From: Cyanobacteriota bacterium
GTDB taxonomy: Bacteria > Cyanobacteriota > Vampirovibrionia > LMEP-6097
Length of the DNA stretch: 41,269 nucleotides
Direction: 5' to 3'
Assembly (NCBI GenBank): GCA_027618255.1
Contig: JAQCFG010000012.1
Span: 1-41,269 of the forward strand
Under the pieces are notes generated by a model. That model saw only the letters and a list, made by a program, of their open reading frames with translations. It was not told the origin of the DNA and did no database searches. Of this stretch, positions 22,516 through 27,766 are shown piece by piece. Within the stretch, counting starts at the first letter, position 1; every line of letters starts with the position of its first letter. The position numbers and the translations under genes were made by a program.

Positions 22516-23562
22516 ATGGAACTGACCCTCAAAGATACACGTGAAGAATTAAGCAAGCTTGAAGCAGAGGCAGCAAGTGAGTTTCCTCGTGCAAATGATT
22601 CTAAAACACTCAATGATATTAGAGTGAAATACCTTGGTGACAAAAGCACTATTGTTAATTTGCGCCGTAATATGAAGCATGTATCCAATGAAGAGAAACC
22701 AGAGTTTGGTAAGTTAATTAACCAAACTCTTAATGTAATTCAAACAAGTTTTGAGACTGCTAAAACTAGAATCGAAACTGCTGAACTTAATGCCAAACTT
22801 GAGAAAGAAAGAATAGATCCGAGTCTACCTGGCTTGGGTACAAAGCTCGGTAATTTACATCCATTGACGATGGTAACGAATGACATCGTCAAGATTTTTG
22901 AAACTATGGGTTTTTCTTTGGTAGATGGTCCTGAGATTGAGAATACTTATTACAACTTCACGGCACTCAACACGCCTGAAGATCATCCGGCAAGAGATGA
23001 GCAAGATACTTTTTATACTAGCCTTGGAGACGATGTTTTACTTAGATCACATACCTCGTCTATTCAAATTCGTGCCATGGAGAGACTCAAGCCACCATTT
23101 AGAATTATTGGGCATGGCAGAGTCTATCGTAATGAAGAAGTCAACGCGCGCAAGATGCCCTTCTTTCATCAACTTGAAGTAATGATGATTGAAGAGAATG
23201 TCAATTTTGGTAATATGAAATGGGTGCTTAATGAATTTCTCAAGCAGTTTTTTGGAGAGGAGCTGCCGACAAGATTCCGTCCGGATTTTTTCCCGTTTAC
23301 TGAGCCGTCTGCTGAGCTTGATGCCCAGTGTGTTTTTTGTAAGGGCAATGGCTGCACTACTTGCGGTAACCGCGGTTGGCTAGAGCTAATGGGTTGCGGT
23401 ATGGTTGATCCTAAGGTTCTTGAGATGGCAGGAATAGATCCAGAGAAGTATTCTGGTTTTGCAGCTGGTCTTGGAATAGATAGATTTGCGATGCTTAAAT
23501 ACAAGATTAATGATATTAGATTTATGTTTAATGGGGATCAAAGATTTTTGAATCAGTTTTAG
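22516..23562 (+). CDS. pheS: Phenylalanine-tRNA ligase alpha subunit
   Basis: PheS is the catalytic class II subunit of the alpha2-beta2 enzyme. The 348-aa product has an N-terminal coiled coil (1-90), LHPLTMV, motif 2 FRIIGHGRVYRNEEVNARK, FPFTEPSAE and the motif 3 region GLGIDRFAMLKY. An internal CVFCKGNGCTTCG cluster could bind zinc, as seen in several bacterial PheS proteins. pheT is not adjacent, so the beta subunit must be encoded elsewhere. TATAAT (22503-22508), inside the folP tail, lies 7 bases before the ATG, suggesting an independent leaderless transcript. Its last 11 sense codons and stop recur at 24801-24836. Confidence 0.97.
   Translation: MELTLKDTREELSKLEAEAASEFPRANDSKTLNDIRVKYLGDKSTIVNLRRNMKHVSNEEKPEFGKLINQTLNVIQTSFETAKTRIETAELNAKLEKERIDPSLPGLGTKLGNLHPLTMVTNDIVKIFETMGFSLVDGPEIENTYYNFTALNTPEDHPARDEQDTFYTSLGDDVLLRSHTSSIQIRAMERLKPPFRIIGHGRVYRNEEVNARKMPFFHQLEVMMIEENVNFGNMKWVLNEFLKQFFGEELPTRFRPDFFPFTEPSAELDAQCVFCKGNGCTTCGNRGWLELMGCGMVDPKVLEMAGIDPEKYSGFAAGLGIDRFAMLKYKINDIRFMFNGDQRFLNQF
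23527..23562 (+). repeat. pheS 3' end, left copy of a 36-bp direct repeat
   Basis: The last 12 codons of pheS, including the stop, match 24801-24836 at 31 of 36 bases. Apart from the first codon (TTT versus GTT), all differences are synonymous: CAA/CAG, AGA/CGG and AAT/AAC. Residues NGDQRFLNQF are identical. Confidence 0.85.
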
Positions 23563-23583
23563 TATTTATGTAATTTATCGGTA

Positions 23584-23648
23584 CTAATATGAAAAATGCA
23601 TGTAATTTCATATTAGCATTGTGGTAAATAGGGTATAATTCATATTAG
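23584..23648 (+). promoter_or_regulatory. Promoter and dyad operator of the DUF4143-type ATPase
   Basis: Perfect 11-bp arms ctaatatgaaa (23584-23594) and tttcatattag (23606-23616) precede a consensus TATAAT (23634-23639). A third tcatattag (23640-23648) directly abuts the ATG. The -10 is 9 bases from the start codon, so the transcript would be leaderless, and the repeats bracket the promoter like an operator. Confidence 0.55.
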
Positions 23649-24794
23649 ATGATAGAAAGATCACTCAAGCTACCATTAGAGGGCTCTCAAAGTATATTTT
23701 TGTTTGGCCCTAGAGGGGTAGGTAAGAGCTACTGGTTATCAAGGCAGCTGCCAGGAGCCTTGTACATTGATCTCCTGGATAGTCAAATACGTTTTGATTT
23801 GGAGGTAGATCTATCAAGATTGAGAAGGTATCTTAGTCAAGATCTTAATCAATGGATTGTAATTGATGAGATACAAAAGCTTCCTGAGCTACTTGATGAG
23901 GTTCATAAATTAATTGAACAAGATTCTCGCAAATTTGTTCTTACTGGCTCTAGTGCTCGTAAGCTCAAACGAGAAGGAGTGAATTTACTTGCTGGACGAG
24001 CTTTAACTTATAAATTATTTCCTCTGACAGCGATTGAACTTGGCTGTCAGTTTGATCTTGCTCATTCATTAGAGTTTGGACATATGCCTAGTATTTATGA
24101 CAAACTGGATTTAAATAAAACAGATTATTTGAATTCCTATATCAAAACCTACCTTAAAGAAGAAGTAATGCAGGAAGGGCTTGCAAGAGATCTTGCTGCG
24201 TTTTCTCGTTTCTTGGAAGCTGCAAGCTTCTCACAAGGTTCTACCCTTAATATCAGTGCGATTGCACGTGATGCTTCTGTCAAAGCTAATACGGTTGCTG
24301 GCTATTTTGATTTAATTGAGGATATGCTAGTTTCATATCGCTTGCCAGTTTTTACTAAGCGCGCCAAGAGGCGTTTAGTAGCTCACCCCAAGTTTTATTT
24401 TTTTGATGCTGGTATTTATTATCATCTTAGACCCAAAAGTATTTTGGATTCTGTTTCTGAGTTGCATGGAGCTGGCTTGGAGACTTTGGTCTTGCAAGAT
24501 CTGCTTGCTGTTAATGAATACAATAAACTTGGTTATCAAATATTTTACTGGCGTACCACTAATGGCACAGAAGTAGATTTTGTTGTGCTTGGAGCAAAGA
24601 AGTTACTAGCGATAGAAGTTAAACACTCAAGTAAATTCCACCCTAAGGATTTTACTGGGCTTAAGGCTTTTAAAAAGGACTATCCAGAAGCGGAGTTGAT
24701 GCTTTTGTATTTAGGTAGTGCTAAGCAAGAGTATCAAGGGATTCAAGTGATTCCGGTTCAGGAGTTTTTGCCTGGTTTGTTGAGGTATCTTTGA
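23649..24794 (+). CDS. AAA_14/DUF4143 family ATPase
   Basis: This 381-aa protein has an N-terminal P-loop ATPase with Walker A FGPRGVGKS, Walker B QWIVIDEIQKLP and sensor-like FVLTGSSARKLK. The C-terminal DUF4143 part has the PD-(D/E)XK-like pattern TEVDFVV...LAIEVK. Such genes are widespread, patchily distributed and often horizontally moved. Their function is largely unknown. Here the gene lies alone between two copies of the pheS 3' end, with its own dyad-bracketed promoter, which strongly suggests insertion as a unit. No integrase or transposase is present. The middle region around residue 140 is shorter than in many family members. Confidence 0.88.
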   Translation: MIERSLKLPLEGSQSIFLFGPRGVGKSYWLSRQLPGALYIDLLDSQIRFDLEVDLSRLRRYLSQDLNQWIVIDEIQKLPELLDEVHKLIEQDSRKFVLTGSSARKLKREGVNLLAGRALTYKLFPLTAIELGCQFDLAHSLEFGHMPSIYDKLDLNKTDYLNSYIKTYLKEEVMQEGLARDLAAFSRFLEAASFSQGSTLNISAIARDASVKANTVAGYFDLIEDMLVSYRLPVFTKRAKRRLVAHPKFYFFDAGIYYHLRPKSILDSVSELHGAGLETLVLQDLLAVNEYNKLGYQIFYWRTTNGTEVDFVVLGAKKLLAIEVKHSSKFHPKDFTGLKAFKKDYPEAELMLLYLGSAKQEYQGIQVIPVQEFLPGLLRYL

Positions 24795-24800
24795 GTTAGG

Positions 24801-24836
24801 GTTAATGGGGATCAGCGGTTTTTGAACCAGTTTTAG
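24801..24836 (+). repeat. Second, orphan copy of the pheS 3' end
   Basis: Twelve codons, GTT then NGDQRFLNQF and TAG, sit seven bases after the ATPase stop with no gene in front. This is a displaced remnant of a pheS 3' end. Together with the copy at 23527 it brackets the ATPase gene. Confidence 0.85.
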
Positions 24837-24840
24837 TGGC

Positions 24841-24861: not shown

Positions 24862-26016
24862 ATGGTAATTGGCTTAACACGTTATTCTTTGGAGAGAAAG
24901 TCGCCTGAGCAAAAAGGTCTCGGTGAATCTAAGATTGCACGTATTCTTAAAAATGGCTCGATGTTAAATTCTTATGGTTCACCACTTATCTTCGCTGGTG
25001 AAAAATACTTCTTTGATATTCATGGGACGCATGATGATACTCGTTTGAGTATGAAAAGACTCAATGCCGATCCAAAGAAGCAAGATGAGACTGTATACCA
25101 AGTTGCGCAAGCAGATACGAAGCAAGGATTTTTTCCTGATATGTGCTCATGGCTTGATCAATGGTTTGAGTCTGATATTCCAACTGAAATGAAATTATTA
25201 GAGCAAGAACCGGTTATAACTAATGGTTTGTTAAAACCGGCATATGCTAATTATTTGATGCAATACCGCAAGCAGATTAATCCTGGTAGTGATGATTTCT
25301 TTTTGAGGTATGGTTGTTTTGGTGCTGATGTTTCTAGTGCTTTATTGATTAGTAATGCAACTAAAATAGAAGCATTCGATTGTAATTCGATTAATTTAGA
25401 GGCATACAAGGATTGTTTTGAGATGTCTTTAGATGATTTGAAAGACAAAATTATTGAACAGTATGACGAGACTTTTGCCTCTACTTTGGAAACTAGGCGA
25501 GCAGAGTGTTTTTGGATTACAGATGAGGCTTTCTTTGATATTCCCAGAGAGCTGCTGATACTATATGAACTCAAAGCACTTGCTGCAACGAATATACAAG
25601 CATGTGCTGATGGCGTGAGTTTTGATTGGGCTTATCCTGGAGAAGAGATTATAGAAGGAAGAACATTGTCTTTTCACCAAGGTTGGATACCGGATGCTTT
25701 GGAAGACTTGGAGCCTTGTGATTGTTATATGCAAAAATGCAGTGAAACAGCGAGTCCTGGTGAGTCAATGTATTTGATCATGGGACAAGTGCAGCCAGGT
25801 GCACCAGTGATCTTAGGTCATTCCTTGGCAGATATTTCTGATGATTTGAATACCGTTGTTGATGCTGCAATTGCAGACTACGAAGATTATAAATTAATAG
25901 ATATACCAGAAATATATCAAATCAAAGTAGCGCAAGATCCAGTGCACGAGCCAGGTATATCTGCTTTTATTAAAAACTATGGCTTTAGGCTTTGCGGCTA
26001 TCAAGAAGCTAACTAA
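24862..26016 (+). CDS. Hypothetical protein with a possible methyltransferase-like Rossmann segment
   Basis: This 384-aa protein is unrecognised overall. The stretch LRYGCFGADVSSALLISN followed by KIEAFDCN resembles motifs I and II of a class I SAM-dependent methyltransferase (glycine-containing loop, then an acidic residue ending the next strand). Motif IV is not evident, so this is weak. The protein is acidic and soluble, without signal peptide. It probably once followed pheS directly, before the ATPase gene came between them. Its stop overlaps the convergent neighbour by four bases. Confidence 0.6.
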   Translation: MVIGLTRYSLERKSPEQKGLGESKIARILKNGSMLNSYGSPLIFAGEKYFFDIHGTHDDTRLSMKRLNADPKKQDETVYQVAQADTKQGFFPDMCSWLDQWFESDIPTEMKLLEQEPVITNGLLKPAYANYLMQYRKQINPGSDDFFLRYGCFGADVSSALLISNATKIEAFDCNSINLEAYKDCFEMSLDDLKDKIIEQYDETFASTLETRRAECFWITDEAFFDIPRELLILYELKALAATNIQACADGVSFDWAYPGEEIIEGRTLSFHQGWIPDALEDLEPCDCYMQKCSETASPGESMYLIMGQVQPGAPVILGHSLADISDDLNTVVDAAIADYEDYKLIDIPEIYQIKVAQDPVHEPGISAFIKNYGFRLCGYQEAN

Positions 26017-26732
26017 TGTTTTGTTTCTGGTGAATCAGCTTGTAGTTGTTCGAGTGACTTATACAAAGATACAACTGCTGACCGTACTAATTCTTTAAGC
26101 CCTATCTTTTTAGATCCTTGCTCGATAGCTTTGAATGTAATTATTTCATTCATGAATTCCAGCAGATCAGTAAATTGCTGGAATTCACATAGTGGTTTAG
26201 CAAGTTTGGCTGCAATCACTGGGTCAATAGCTGCCCATGTGTGATTATCATTCTCTTCTACCATCTTGAGTGATTTAGCTTTGCTTACTACCTTGTCGAC
26301 AAGCTTGGTTACTAGCAGTGTCTTATCTTGATATGCGTAATGAACTAATTTTGCTTGGAGTAATTCCAAGAGCTGGTCTTCAGTGAACTTTGTAGATGTC
26401 TCATGTGATTTGGGTTCTATGCCAGTAGCATCTACAACTTTGATTGTGACTGACCAGTTATTGGAACCGTCATTGGCTTTTTTTGCATCAATGGAAGTTT
26501 TTGAGTATCTTGCATCAATTAATGTTTTTGCAGATTTAGCTTCAAGCCTTAATACCAAGCTCTGATTAGCTTGATAGTGGAAATTAATACGAGCGGCAAA
26601 ACCGTCATTGAAGTTTTGATTTAGGCTTTGTTGATTTCTGATTTTGGTAAATAATTGATCTAGCTCTGTTGTTGAGCTTTGAGCTTGGTTAATAAATCTA
26701 TTTTGTATTTGCTGCCAGGTGATTGTTGCCAT
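26013..26732 (-). CDS. Hypothetical protein
   Basis: I do not recognise this 239-aa protein. An N-terminal helical part (1-45) is followed by a mixed region with strands such as INFHYQANQSLVLRLEAKSA and NNWSVTIKVVDATG, then a helical C-terminus. It has no cysteine, signal peptide or membrane segment. A consensus TATAAT (26749-26754) lies 16 bases before the ATG. It is convergent with the 384-aa gene and 83 bases from the next gene upstream on the same strand. Confidence 0.62.
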   Translation of the reverse strand: MATITWQQIQNRFINQAQSSTTELDQLFTKIRNQQSLNQNFNDGFAARINFHYQANQSLVLRLEAKSAKTLIDARYSKTSIDAKKANDGSNNWSVTIKVVDATGIEPKSHETSTKFTEDQLLELLQAKLVHYAYQDKTLLVTKLVDKVVSKAKSLKMVEENDNHTWAAIDPVIAAKLAKPLCEFQQFTDLLEFMNEIITFKAIEQGSKKIGLKELVRSAVVSLYKSLEQLQADSPETKH

Positions 26733-26815: not shown

Positions 26816-27766
26816 TCAAGCAAAATCTACCAAGACATTCTCATTTCTATTTTGAGAAATCTGTCCATAAAAATAGGTACCAATATTGTTTAGTATCATG
26901 TTGAAGTGATTAATTGGATCAATGATTTCTTGTGGTAGGAAGCGTTGCAAGGCGTCTAGCACTGCATTGACGGCGTAGAAGATACCGGCTTTTTTCATGT
27001 CTGGATCTTGATGCTGAATCATTGTAATATCACCAGCAAAGCCACCAATATTGCGAATCAGTCCGCCTAGCTTGTTCATGAAGTTACGTTTGTTGGCGCC
27101 GAAGATCACACCAAGTAAGGAACCAACAAAGATAGTATGTCCAAAGACAGCCATGGTATGTCCTTGGTCTTTATCACTTCCAACAAAAATCTTTCTATTT
27201 TTACCGAGACCACCCTGGATAATCTCTTCAAGTATCTTGGTGCCGGCTTTAATATTTTTAAAGAAGTTATCAGCTTTGCTCATGACCCTGTCACCTACCA
27301 AGTGATTTTGGGTGAAGTCAAGCAAAGTCATTCCAGCACTCATACCCCTGGCTAGATGAATGTCTTCCAATTTCATCCAAGGTACAAAGAGAGGGTCGAG
27401 TGCTCTAGCGATAAAATCAATGACCTTGTTATTCTTGAGGGCTTCAACAGCTAGGTGAGCATAACGAATAGAAGTTACAGCTTTGGAGACTCTGACTGTA
27501 TTGGTGTTGAGAAAATCAGTGAGAGGTTTTGGTAAGAAATTCTTCAGGCAATTTAGTCCGGTGATTGCATGCATTGTTGACGAGATCCAATAGCCGTATT
27601 TGGGGAAATGCTTGGTAAAAAATTGATTTACAGCTCCATCTTCTTTAGGACTAAGAGTAGTTTCTGCTTTTACTACTAAAGGTTCTAATTTAGAACGGCT
27701 TGAAACAGTCTCTCTGGAATAAAGACCATCATGTAAGTTATTAGCTGCTTGGAGAAGCATGCTCAT
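26816..27766 (-). CDS. Hypothetical protein with hydrophobic segments
   Basis: I do not recognise this 316-aa protein. It has hydrophobic, glycine-rich stretches that may be membrane-associated, for example MAVFGHTIFVGSLLGVIFG (about residues 222-240) and a weaker one around YGYWISSTMHAITGL. No catalytic motif is visible. TATAAT (27775-27780) lies 8 bases before the ATG with no Shine-Dalgarno sequence. It lies 27 bases downstream of atpD, where atpC (epsilon) would be expected, but the sequence is not epsilon-like. Confidence 0.65.
   Translation of the reverse strand: MSMLLQAANNLHDGLYSRETVSSRSKLEPLVVKAETTLSPKEDGAVNQFFTKHFPKYGYWISSTMHAITGLNCLKNFLPKPLTDFLNTNTVRVSKAVTSIRYAHLAVEALKNNKVIDFIARALDPLFVPWMKLEDIHLARGMSAGMTLLDFTQNHLVGDRVMSKADNFFKNIKAGTKILEEIIQGGLGKNRKIFVGSDKDQGHTMAVFGHTIFVGSLLGVIFGANKRNFMNKLGGLIRNIGGFAGDITMIQHQDPDMKKAGIFYAVNAVLDALQRFLPQEIIDPINHFNMILNNIGTYFYGQISQNRNENVLVDFA

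Follow-up and report, generated by a model that had tools for sequence, protein, structure and literature searches.

A DUF4143-type ATPase gene bracketed by a duplicated pheS 3' end suggests that a single-gene unit inserted and duplicated its target

In the window, by which we mean the whole 41,269-nt stretch of DNA analysed here, a gene encoding an AAA_14-DUF4143 ATPase is bracketed by two copies of the 3' end of pheS. We read this arrangement as the trace of an old insertion of a self-placing single-gene unit at the 3' end of pheS, accompanied by duplication of the target, and give this account as a whole even odds (about 0.5). Its parts differ in strength: it is highly probable that a single-gene unit inserted and that the target was duplicated, and mobilisation of the unit by its own ATPase-nuclease is a tentative proposal whose chances are at best even. 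As far as sequence comparison can tell, the layout, an empty site in a relative, the relocation of a close copy, a unit that, where copies are best resolved, finishes at the stop codon, and an association of such repeats with the DUF4143 family are all present.

The last 12 codons of pheS recur beyond the ATPase gene with 31 of 36 bases identical (Table 1), and the core of the second copy begins six bases past the ATPase stop codon. A sequence-only reading of this DNA had reported these coordinates and this identity exactly, and was also right that the differences past the first codon are all synonymous and that the stop codon is kept. The repeat extends by BLAST to 51 nt at 82% identity (E ~8e-12, flank-against-flank), and a search of the window's own genome (G000) placed it in just these two positions. 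A TATAAT box (23634-23639) lies between the dyad and the ATPase gene. The unit is essentially one gene with a promoter dyad, as had been proposed. Its sole gene is that of the ATPase; the unit contains no integrase gene and no attachment core, and no larger, recombinase-bearing element occurs between pheS and the next conserved gene. The earlier statement that there is no recombinase thus stands for known recombinases, and has to be amended in that the ATPase itself carries a nuclease domain. The second tail is in frame behind the ATPase stop in the window and out of frame in G001, another genome of the genus; because the frame differs, we rejected a conserved translational fusion of the tail to the ATPase.

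Table 1. Features of the pheS site, in window coordinates.
Feature	Coordinates	Strand	Remarks
pheS, phenylalanyl-tRNA synthetase alpha subunit	22516..23562	+	Intact target gene; Pfam tRNA-synt_2d, E 5.9e-93
Repeat copy 1 (R1/T1), working pheS 3' end	23513..23563	+	Core 23527-23562
Dyad CTAATATGAAA-N11-TTTCATATTAG	23584..23616	none	Left end of unit, 5' of TATAAT
AAA_14-DUF4143 ATPase with predicted C-terminal PD-(D/E)XK nuclease fold (PDC-S01)	23649..24794	+	Pfam, PADLOC, AlphaFold2, Foldseek
Nuclease-fold coding part of ATPase gene, residues 269-354 (predicted)	24453..24710	+	Invariant residues, model
Repeat copy 2 (R2/T2), duplicated pheS 3' end	24787..24837	+	Attached to no pheS; core 24801-24836
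384-aa gene	24862..26016	+	No Pfam match; missing from empty site
239-aa gene	26013..26732	-	No Pfam match; missing from empty site
Convergent gene	26816..27766	-	In the G002 empty site its stop overlaps the pheS stop

The layout recurs in G001, an independent MAG of the same genus, which carries pheS, the ATPase gene (89% amino acid identity), a second tail and the same two downstream genes, with a repeat of 75-81 nt at 86%. The repeat is therefore neither chance nor a single assembly error, and an assembly artefact at pheS is ruled out by the two independent MAGs; among 300 mismatched flank pairs a single hit was obtained, which was G001 against G000 pheS. In G001 the second tail comprises 26 codons (L033:5166-5240) and starts directly at the ATPase stop codon. 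pheS orthologs were present in 60 of the 60 relatives searched, and comparison of pheS 3' regions within the family, a check the sequence-only reading had recommended, revealed an uninterrupted junction in G002, a further genome of the genus, in which pheS runs directly into the convergent gene. This ATPase was found beside pheS in none of six more family genomes, and with the empty site of G002 this upholds the proposed insertion at the pheS 3' end; G008 carries a remote relative of the ATPase (24%) about 3.5 kb from pheS. The G002 ortholog (82-84%) sits beside a gene near groEL/groESL, and the groESL neighbourhoods of G000 and G001 hold no such ATPase.

The 384-aa and 239-aa genes of the window likewise fall in the stretch that G002 lacks, and the site has therefore gained more than the ATPase. 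The 384-aa gene has no NCBIfam match either and is full-length, among the 60 relatives, only in G000 and G001. Nucleotide identity between the window and G001 is 84-89% across pheS, the ATPase, the 384-aa, 239-aa and convergent genes, and the insertion therefore predates the split of the two. The last 186 bp of the ATPase gene (24609-24794) are 65% identical to G001, versus 88% elsewhere in the gene, and adjoin the point at which the second tail of the window is cut short; it is possible that the 3' end was replaced.

From the synonymous differences it had been concluded that the newcomer supplied a replacement tail taken from a diverged pheS. This part of the sequence-only reading is not supported. 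The second tail of the window reads CAG CGG .. AAC, close to the outgroup G002 (CAG CGT .. AAC) and to G001 pheS (CAG CGG), and the working tail of the window has changed to CAA AGA .. AAT. Because the second tail keeps the G002 states, it was mostly the working pheS that changed to give the synonymous differences, and their restriction to synonymous positions appears to reflect drift in a functional copy rather than an imported foreign tail. Since the youngest repeats of this kind are 96-100% identical to the host gene end, the duplicate probably stems from the host itself and is not a tail that came with the newcomer. There is also a crosswise likeness, which could be homoplasy or an exchange between lineages: the G001 second tail is like window pheS in its 3' half (CAA AG), and the window's second tail is like G001 pheS. 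The Met-Phe codons of the working tail are apparently missing from both second tails, clearly in G001 and less certainly in the window. With two codons lost and a missense change gained, the second tail of G001 is decaying.

Similar scars occur at other gene ends next to other DUF4143 genes. We collected 144 DUF4143 loci from this family and its relatives (Candidatus Melainabacteria), nearly all of them from the family itself and all from draft MAGs, and compared the flanks of 412 other ORFs of the same loci as controls. DUF4143 genes are numerous in these genomes, numbering 17, 23 and 12 in three genomes of the genus and 9-43 in other family members. A direct repeat brackets 18 of the 144 DUF4143 genes versus 6 of the 412 other ORFs (odds ratio 9.7, p=3.6e-7), and 87% of the DUF4143 loci are without a detectable repeat. 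Against AbiEii and Fic genes alone (2/54) the excess is not significant (p=0.11); comparable gene-end duplications were found at 2 of 27 Fic genes and 0 of 27 AbiEii genes, and the Fic cases make a host process a serious rival. Beyond the lineage the excess is weak (6/80 DUF4143 genes versus 5/281, p=0.018). One clean gene-tail case was seen there, in candidate division WOR-1 (L273, METP01000040.1), with a 56-nt repeat of 79% identity at the DUF4143 stop codon.

The second copy usually begins at the stop codon of the ATPase gene. With 1-kb flanks, it starts at most 40 bp from that stop in 10 of 18 significant repeats, about 1.5 being expected; the ten cases amount to 8 independent insertions. 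The duplications are 17-145 bp long and differ at every target. They repeat the tails of pheS, surE, an RlmB/TrmH-type rRNA methyltransferase gene, a PP2C-like gene (17 bp only) and an lptB-like gene, where the ATPase is convergent, as well as the starts of nadK, a queG-like gene and other DUF4143 genes. The surE insertion is found in one genome only, with empty sites in relatives, and those at nadK (100%) and at locus L125 (98%) are young by identity; the repeats of this young group are 96-100% identical. The rRNA methyltransferase case is intermediate (34 bp, 88%), and the insertions common to two genomes, at pheS and lptB, have repeats of 69-86%. Such a fall of identity with age is as predicted if host DNA was duplicated at insertion and then decayed. 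Empty sites were found in G001 and G002 both at surE and at the methyltransferase gene; the filled sites at these two genes and at pheS also hold other genes that are missing from the empty site.

Several individual loci deserve mention. The position after surE is a hot spot, holding the ATPase and an AbiEii-like gene in G000 (L078, contig C74), a different small gene in G001 (L193, C34) and a short spacer in G002. In G001 (C13, L125/L233), 139-bp repeats of 98% identity, not obviously coding, directly flank a DUF4143 gene. In G004 (C196, L360; L385:1390-3000) a Fic gene is bracketed, by eye, by a duplicated RsfS-like tail, the aligned core of which is 61 nt at 98% within an apparently longer duplication, and a DUF4143 gene ends against the second RsfS-like tail. 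Another Fic gene, at a cupin-like 3' end in G001 (C43, L367, ~780-2260), is accompanied by a duplicated tail (DPAWKQEDEVVL versus DPAWKDDDEVVY) and has a dyad before its start, as do DUF4143 genes. Integration at tRNA ends was considered and rejected: a tRNA was present in 1 of 16 loci scanned (L083), where the first repeat precedes it.

Relocation of a single gene was best resolved in one near-identical pair, L153 in G003 and L186 in G007, which are 94.8% identical in nucleotides and whose homology is confined to the gene with 51 bp ahead of its start and 4 bp past its stop. This pair bears out the claim that the unit ends at the stop codon. In contig C31 of G003 a deleted remnant (L228:7825-7997) lies where G007 has an intact copy and is flanked on either side as in G007, and the intact 94.8% copy stands about 4 kb away. 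The two loci have a common neighbourhood, and the remnant records relocation within it. The pair L085/L086 was rejected as a clean jump, as it too lies in one neighbourhood, with the shared right flank 5.5 kb farther in G001. The lineage of the window ATPase itself stands at pheS in G000 and G001 and near groESL in G002. Dozens of relatives of the ATPase gene appear to change genomic position as single genes.

The left end of the unit is a dyad, and dyads are frequent before DUF4143 genes. A dyad score of at least 9 was found before 49% of DUF4143 genes versus 4.7% of control ORFs, and a score of at least 13 within 100 bp before the start in 24% versus 0.7%, and in none of the shuffles. Dyad sequences differ between copies with the symmetry kept, and the lptB-site orthologs of G003 and G007 have compensatory changes in their dyads. 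At L074 and L081, orthologous DUF4143 genes are preceded by perfect dyads of 23-24 bp, with compensatory changes between the two genomes. The dyad seen in other phyla is shorter, resembles an operator and overlaps the start. The dyad may act as an operator or as a cruciform for the nuclease, or may have both roles; because symmetry rather than sequence is shared and an operator-like dyad occurs elsewhere, autoregulation is as likely a role as that of a mobility target.

The ATPase matches AAA_14 (PF13173; 78.4 bits, E 6.5e-22) and DUF4143 (PF13635; 114.7 bits, E 4.5e-33), both above the gathering cut-offs of 27 and 28.1, and several PADLOC models of PDC-S01 match it (E 2.4e-59). In the confident AlphaFold2 model (pLDDT 92.9) an AAA/STAND-like ATPase is followed by a helical middle region, which probably includes a winged helix, and the C terminus adopts a PD-(D/E)XK fold of the order helix-strand-strand-strand-helix-strand. 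Foldseek returned Cdc6/RuvB/STAND ATPases and Can2-type nucleases, with Can2 as the top match, at global TM scores that are low, as expected of domain matches. The Walker residues and E278, E308, D310, E323 and K325 are invariant in 50 homologs, and the resulting E/D...ExD...ExK motif, placed in the right fold, predicts a PD-(D/E)XK nuclease. Relatives at 50-56% identity occur in dozens of phyla, and more distant ones in 345 plasmid and 10 phage records. PDC-S01 ranked fourth among defence systems across prokaryotes in a 2026 survey, according to which most candidates of this kind still await validation (PMC12988326), and COG1373 is among the genes common to gut genera (PMC10782964). In the literature found, phage defence by PDC-S01 is a candidate function and not a validated one.

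We propose that a unit of about 1.2 kb, consisting of the dyad promoter and the ATPase-nuclease gene, would have inserted at the pheS 3' end long ago. Insertion would have duplicated the target DNA of the host, leaving pheS with its full tail and placing a surplus, decaying one past the ATPase stop. The ATPase-nuclease may make a staggered break that receives its own gene, a variable stagger with fill-in yielding duplications of 17-145 bp. The predominance of gene ends would follow from selection, under which an insertion persists only if its duplication leaves the target gene unharmed. A bolder idea, which we consider rather unlikely, is that PDC-S01 genes form a new class of self-moving genes: the encoded ATPase-nuclease would break the chromosome at a wide and variable stagger and place its gene there, bounded on the left by a dyad prone to cruciform formation and on the right by the stop codon, and a long duplication would keep the target whole.

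The scar may instead come from a host process, since 2 of 27 Fic genes show comparable duplications. A defence-type ATPase would then arrive passively on foreign DNA, joined by homology at one end and by illegitimate host joining at the other, with no part played by the ATPase; joints falling inside the target gene end would duplicate that end neutrally, and hence survive. We regard this as a substantial possibility, though not a probable one. The scars at the cupin-like and RsfS-like tails fit it, as do the listing of PDC-S01 as candidate defence and the fact that the target sites are hot spots also occupied by AbiEii-like and other small genes. However, DUF4143 genes exceed the pooled control about eightfold in odds (18/144 versus 8/466), AbiEii genes show none of these scars, the joints cluster at the ATPase stop codon more precisely than random joints would, and the young repeats are near-identical rather than diverged.

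It is improbable that the tail came with an integrative element, that is, that a Campbell-type circle bearing the ATPase and a pheS tail from a diverged strain displaced the host tail, even though direct repeats at a gene 3' end, the purely synonymous differences of the window and the crosswise likeness of the G001 and window tails would all agree with it. The second tail of the window has the outgroup state and young repeats are near-identical, insertions also occur at gene starts (nadK, queG) with the ATPase in either orientation, and each has a new target, with neither integrase nor fixed core site. Least probable of all, to the point of being hardly credible, is a segmental duplication of pheS followed by deletion and unrelated to the ATPase. 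The short window repeat could be the remainder of such a duplication, but the second tail of G001 starts directly at the ATPase stop codon, the site is empty in G002, the same register recurs at unrelated genes beside other DUF4143 genes, and the association statistics contradict this reading.

Under the reading of a self-placing unit, its resemblance to known mobile systems is partial. Like insertion sequences and transposons, these genes are multi-copy, have empty sites and direct target duplications, and comprise one gene per unit; unlike them, the window unit has no known transposase and ends on the right at a stop codon, and the duplications, at 17-145 bp, are not of a short fixed length. 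No terminal inverted repeats were found at the ends of the window unit, where the dyad belongs to the left end only, and none is common to unit ends. Integrative elements at the 3' ends of tRNA or protein genes likewise leave a gene end on both sides of the insertion, whereas here integrase and fixed core are lacking, gene starts are used too and young repeats are host sequence. Free-standing PD-(D/E)XK homing endonucleases are also single nuclease genes beside conserved host genes, but they replace a cognate site without flanking repeats, whereas close copies of DUF4143 genes lie at unrelated sites with repeats. In Tn7-type elements the PD-(D/E)XK protein TnsA and the AAA+ protein TnsC act in target joining together with the DDE transposase TnsB and defined ends; the combination of AAA ATPase and PD-(D/E)XK nuclease is alike, but in the window it is one fused protein with no partner. 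PDC-S01 as defined in PADLOC is the same kind of gene, a very widespread single gene for an AAA_14-DUF4143 ATPase fused to a PD-(D/E)XK nuclease, but it is described as candidate immunity, and our search of the literature on DUF4143, COG1373 and PDC-S01 found nothing on single-gene mobility or target duplications.

Few uncharacterised prokaryote genes are as abundant as those of DUF4143 ATPases, and their defence label rests on genomic neighbourhoods. Relocation of single genes that scars the ends of essential genes would offer another reason for their scattered distribution and suggests a role for the fused nuclease. If the self-moving reading is true, much of what ranks fourth among defence systems would consist of mobile genes that are selfish or serve two purposes. 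In G007 the gene between pheS and atpD (L039:7841-8949), LexA-like by eye, has on its two sides 149-bp repeats of 84% identity that contain AAAACGCAGAAATTGAAGTT units.
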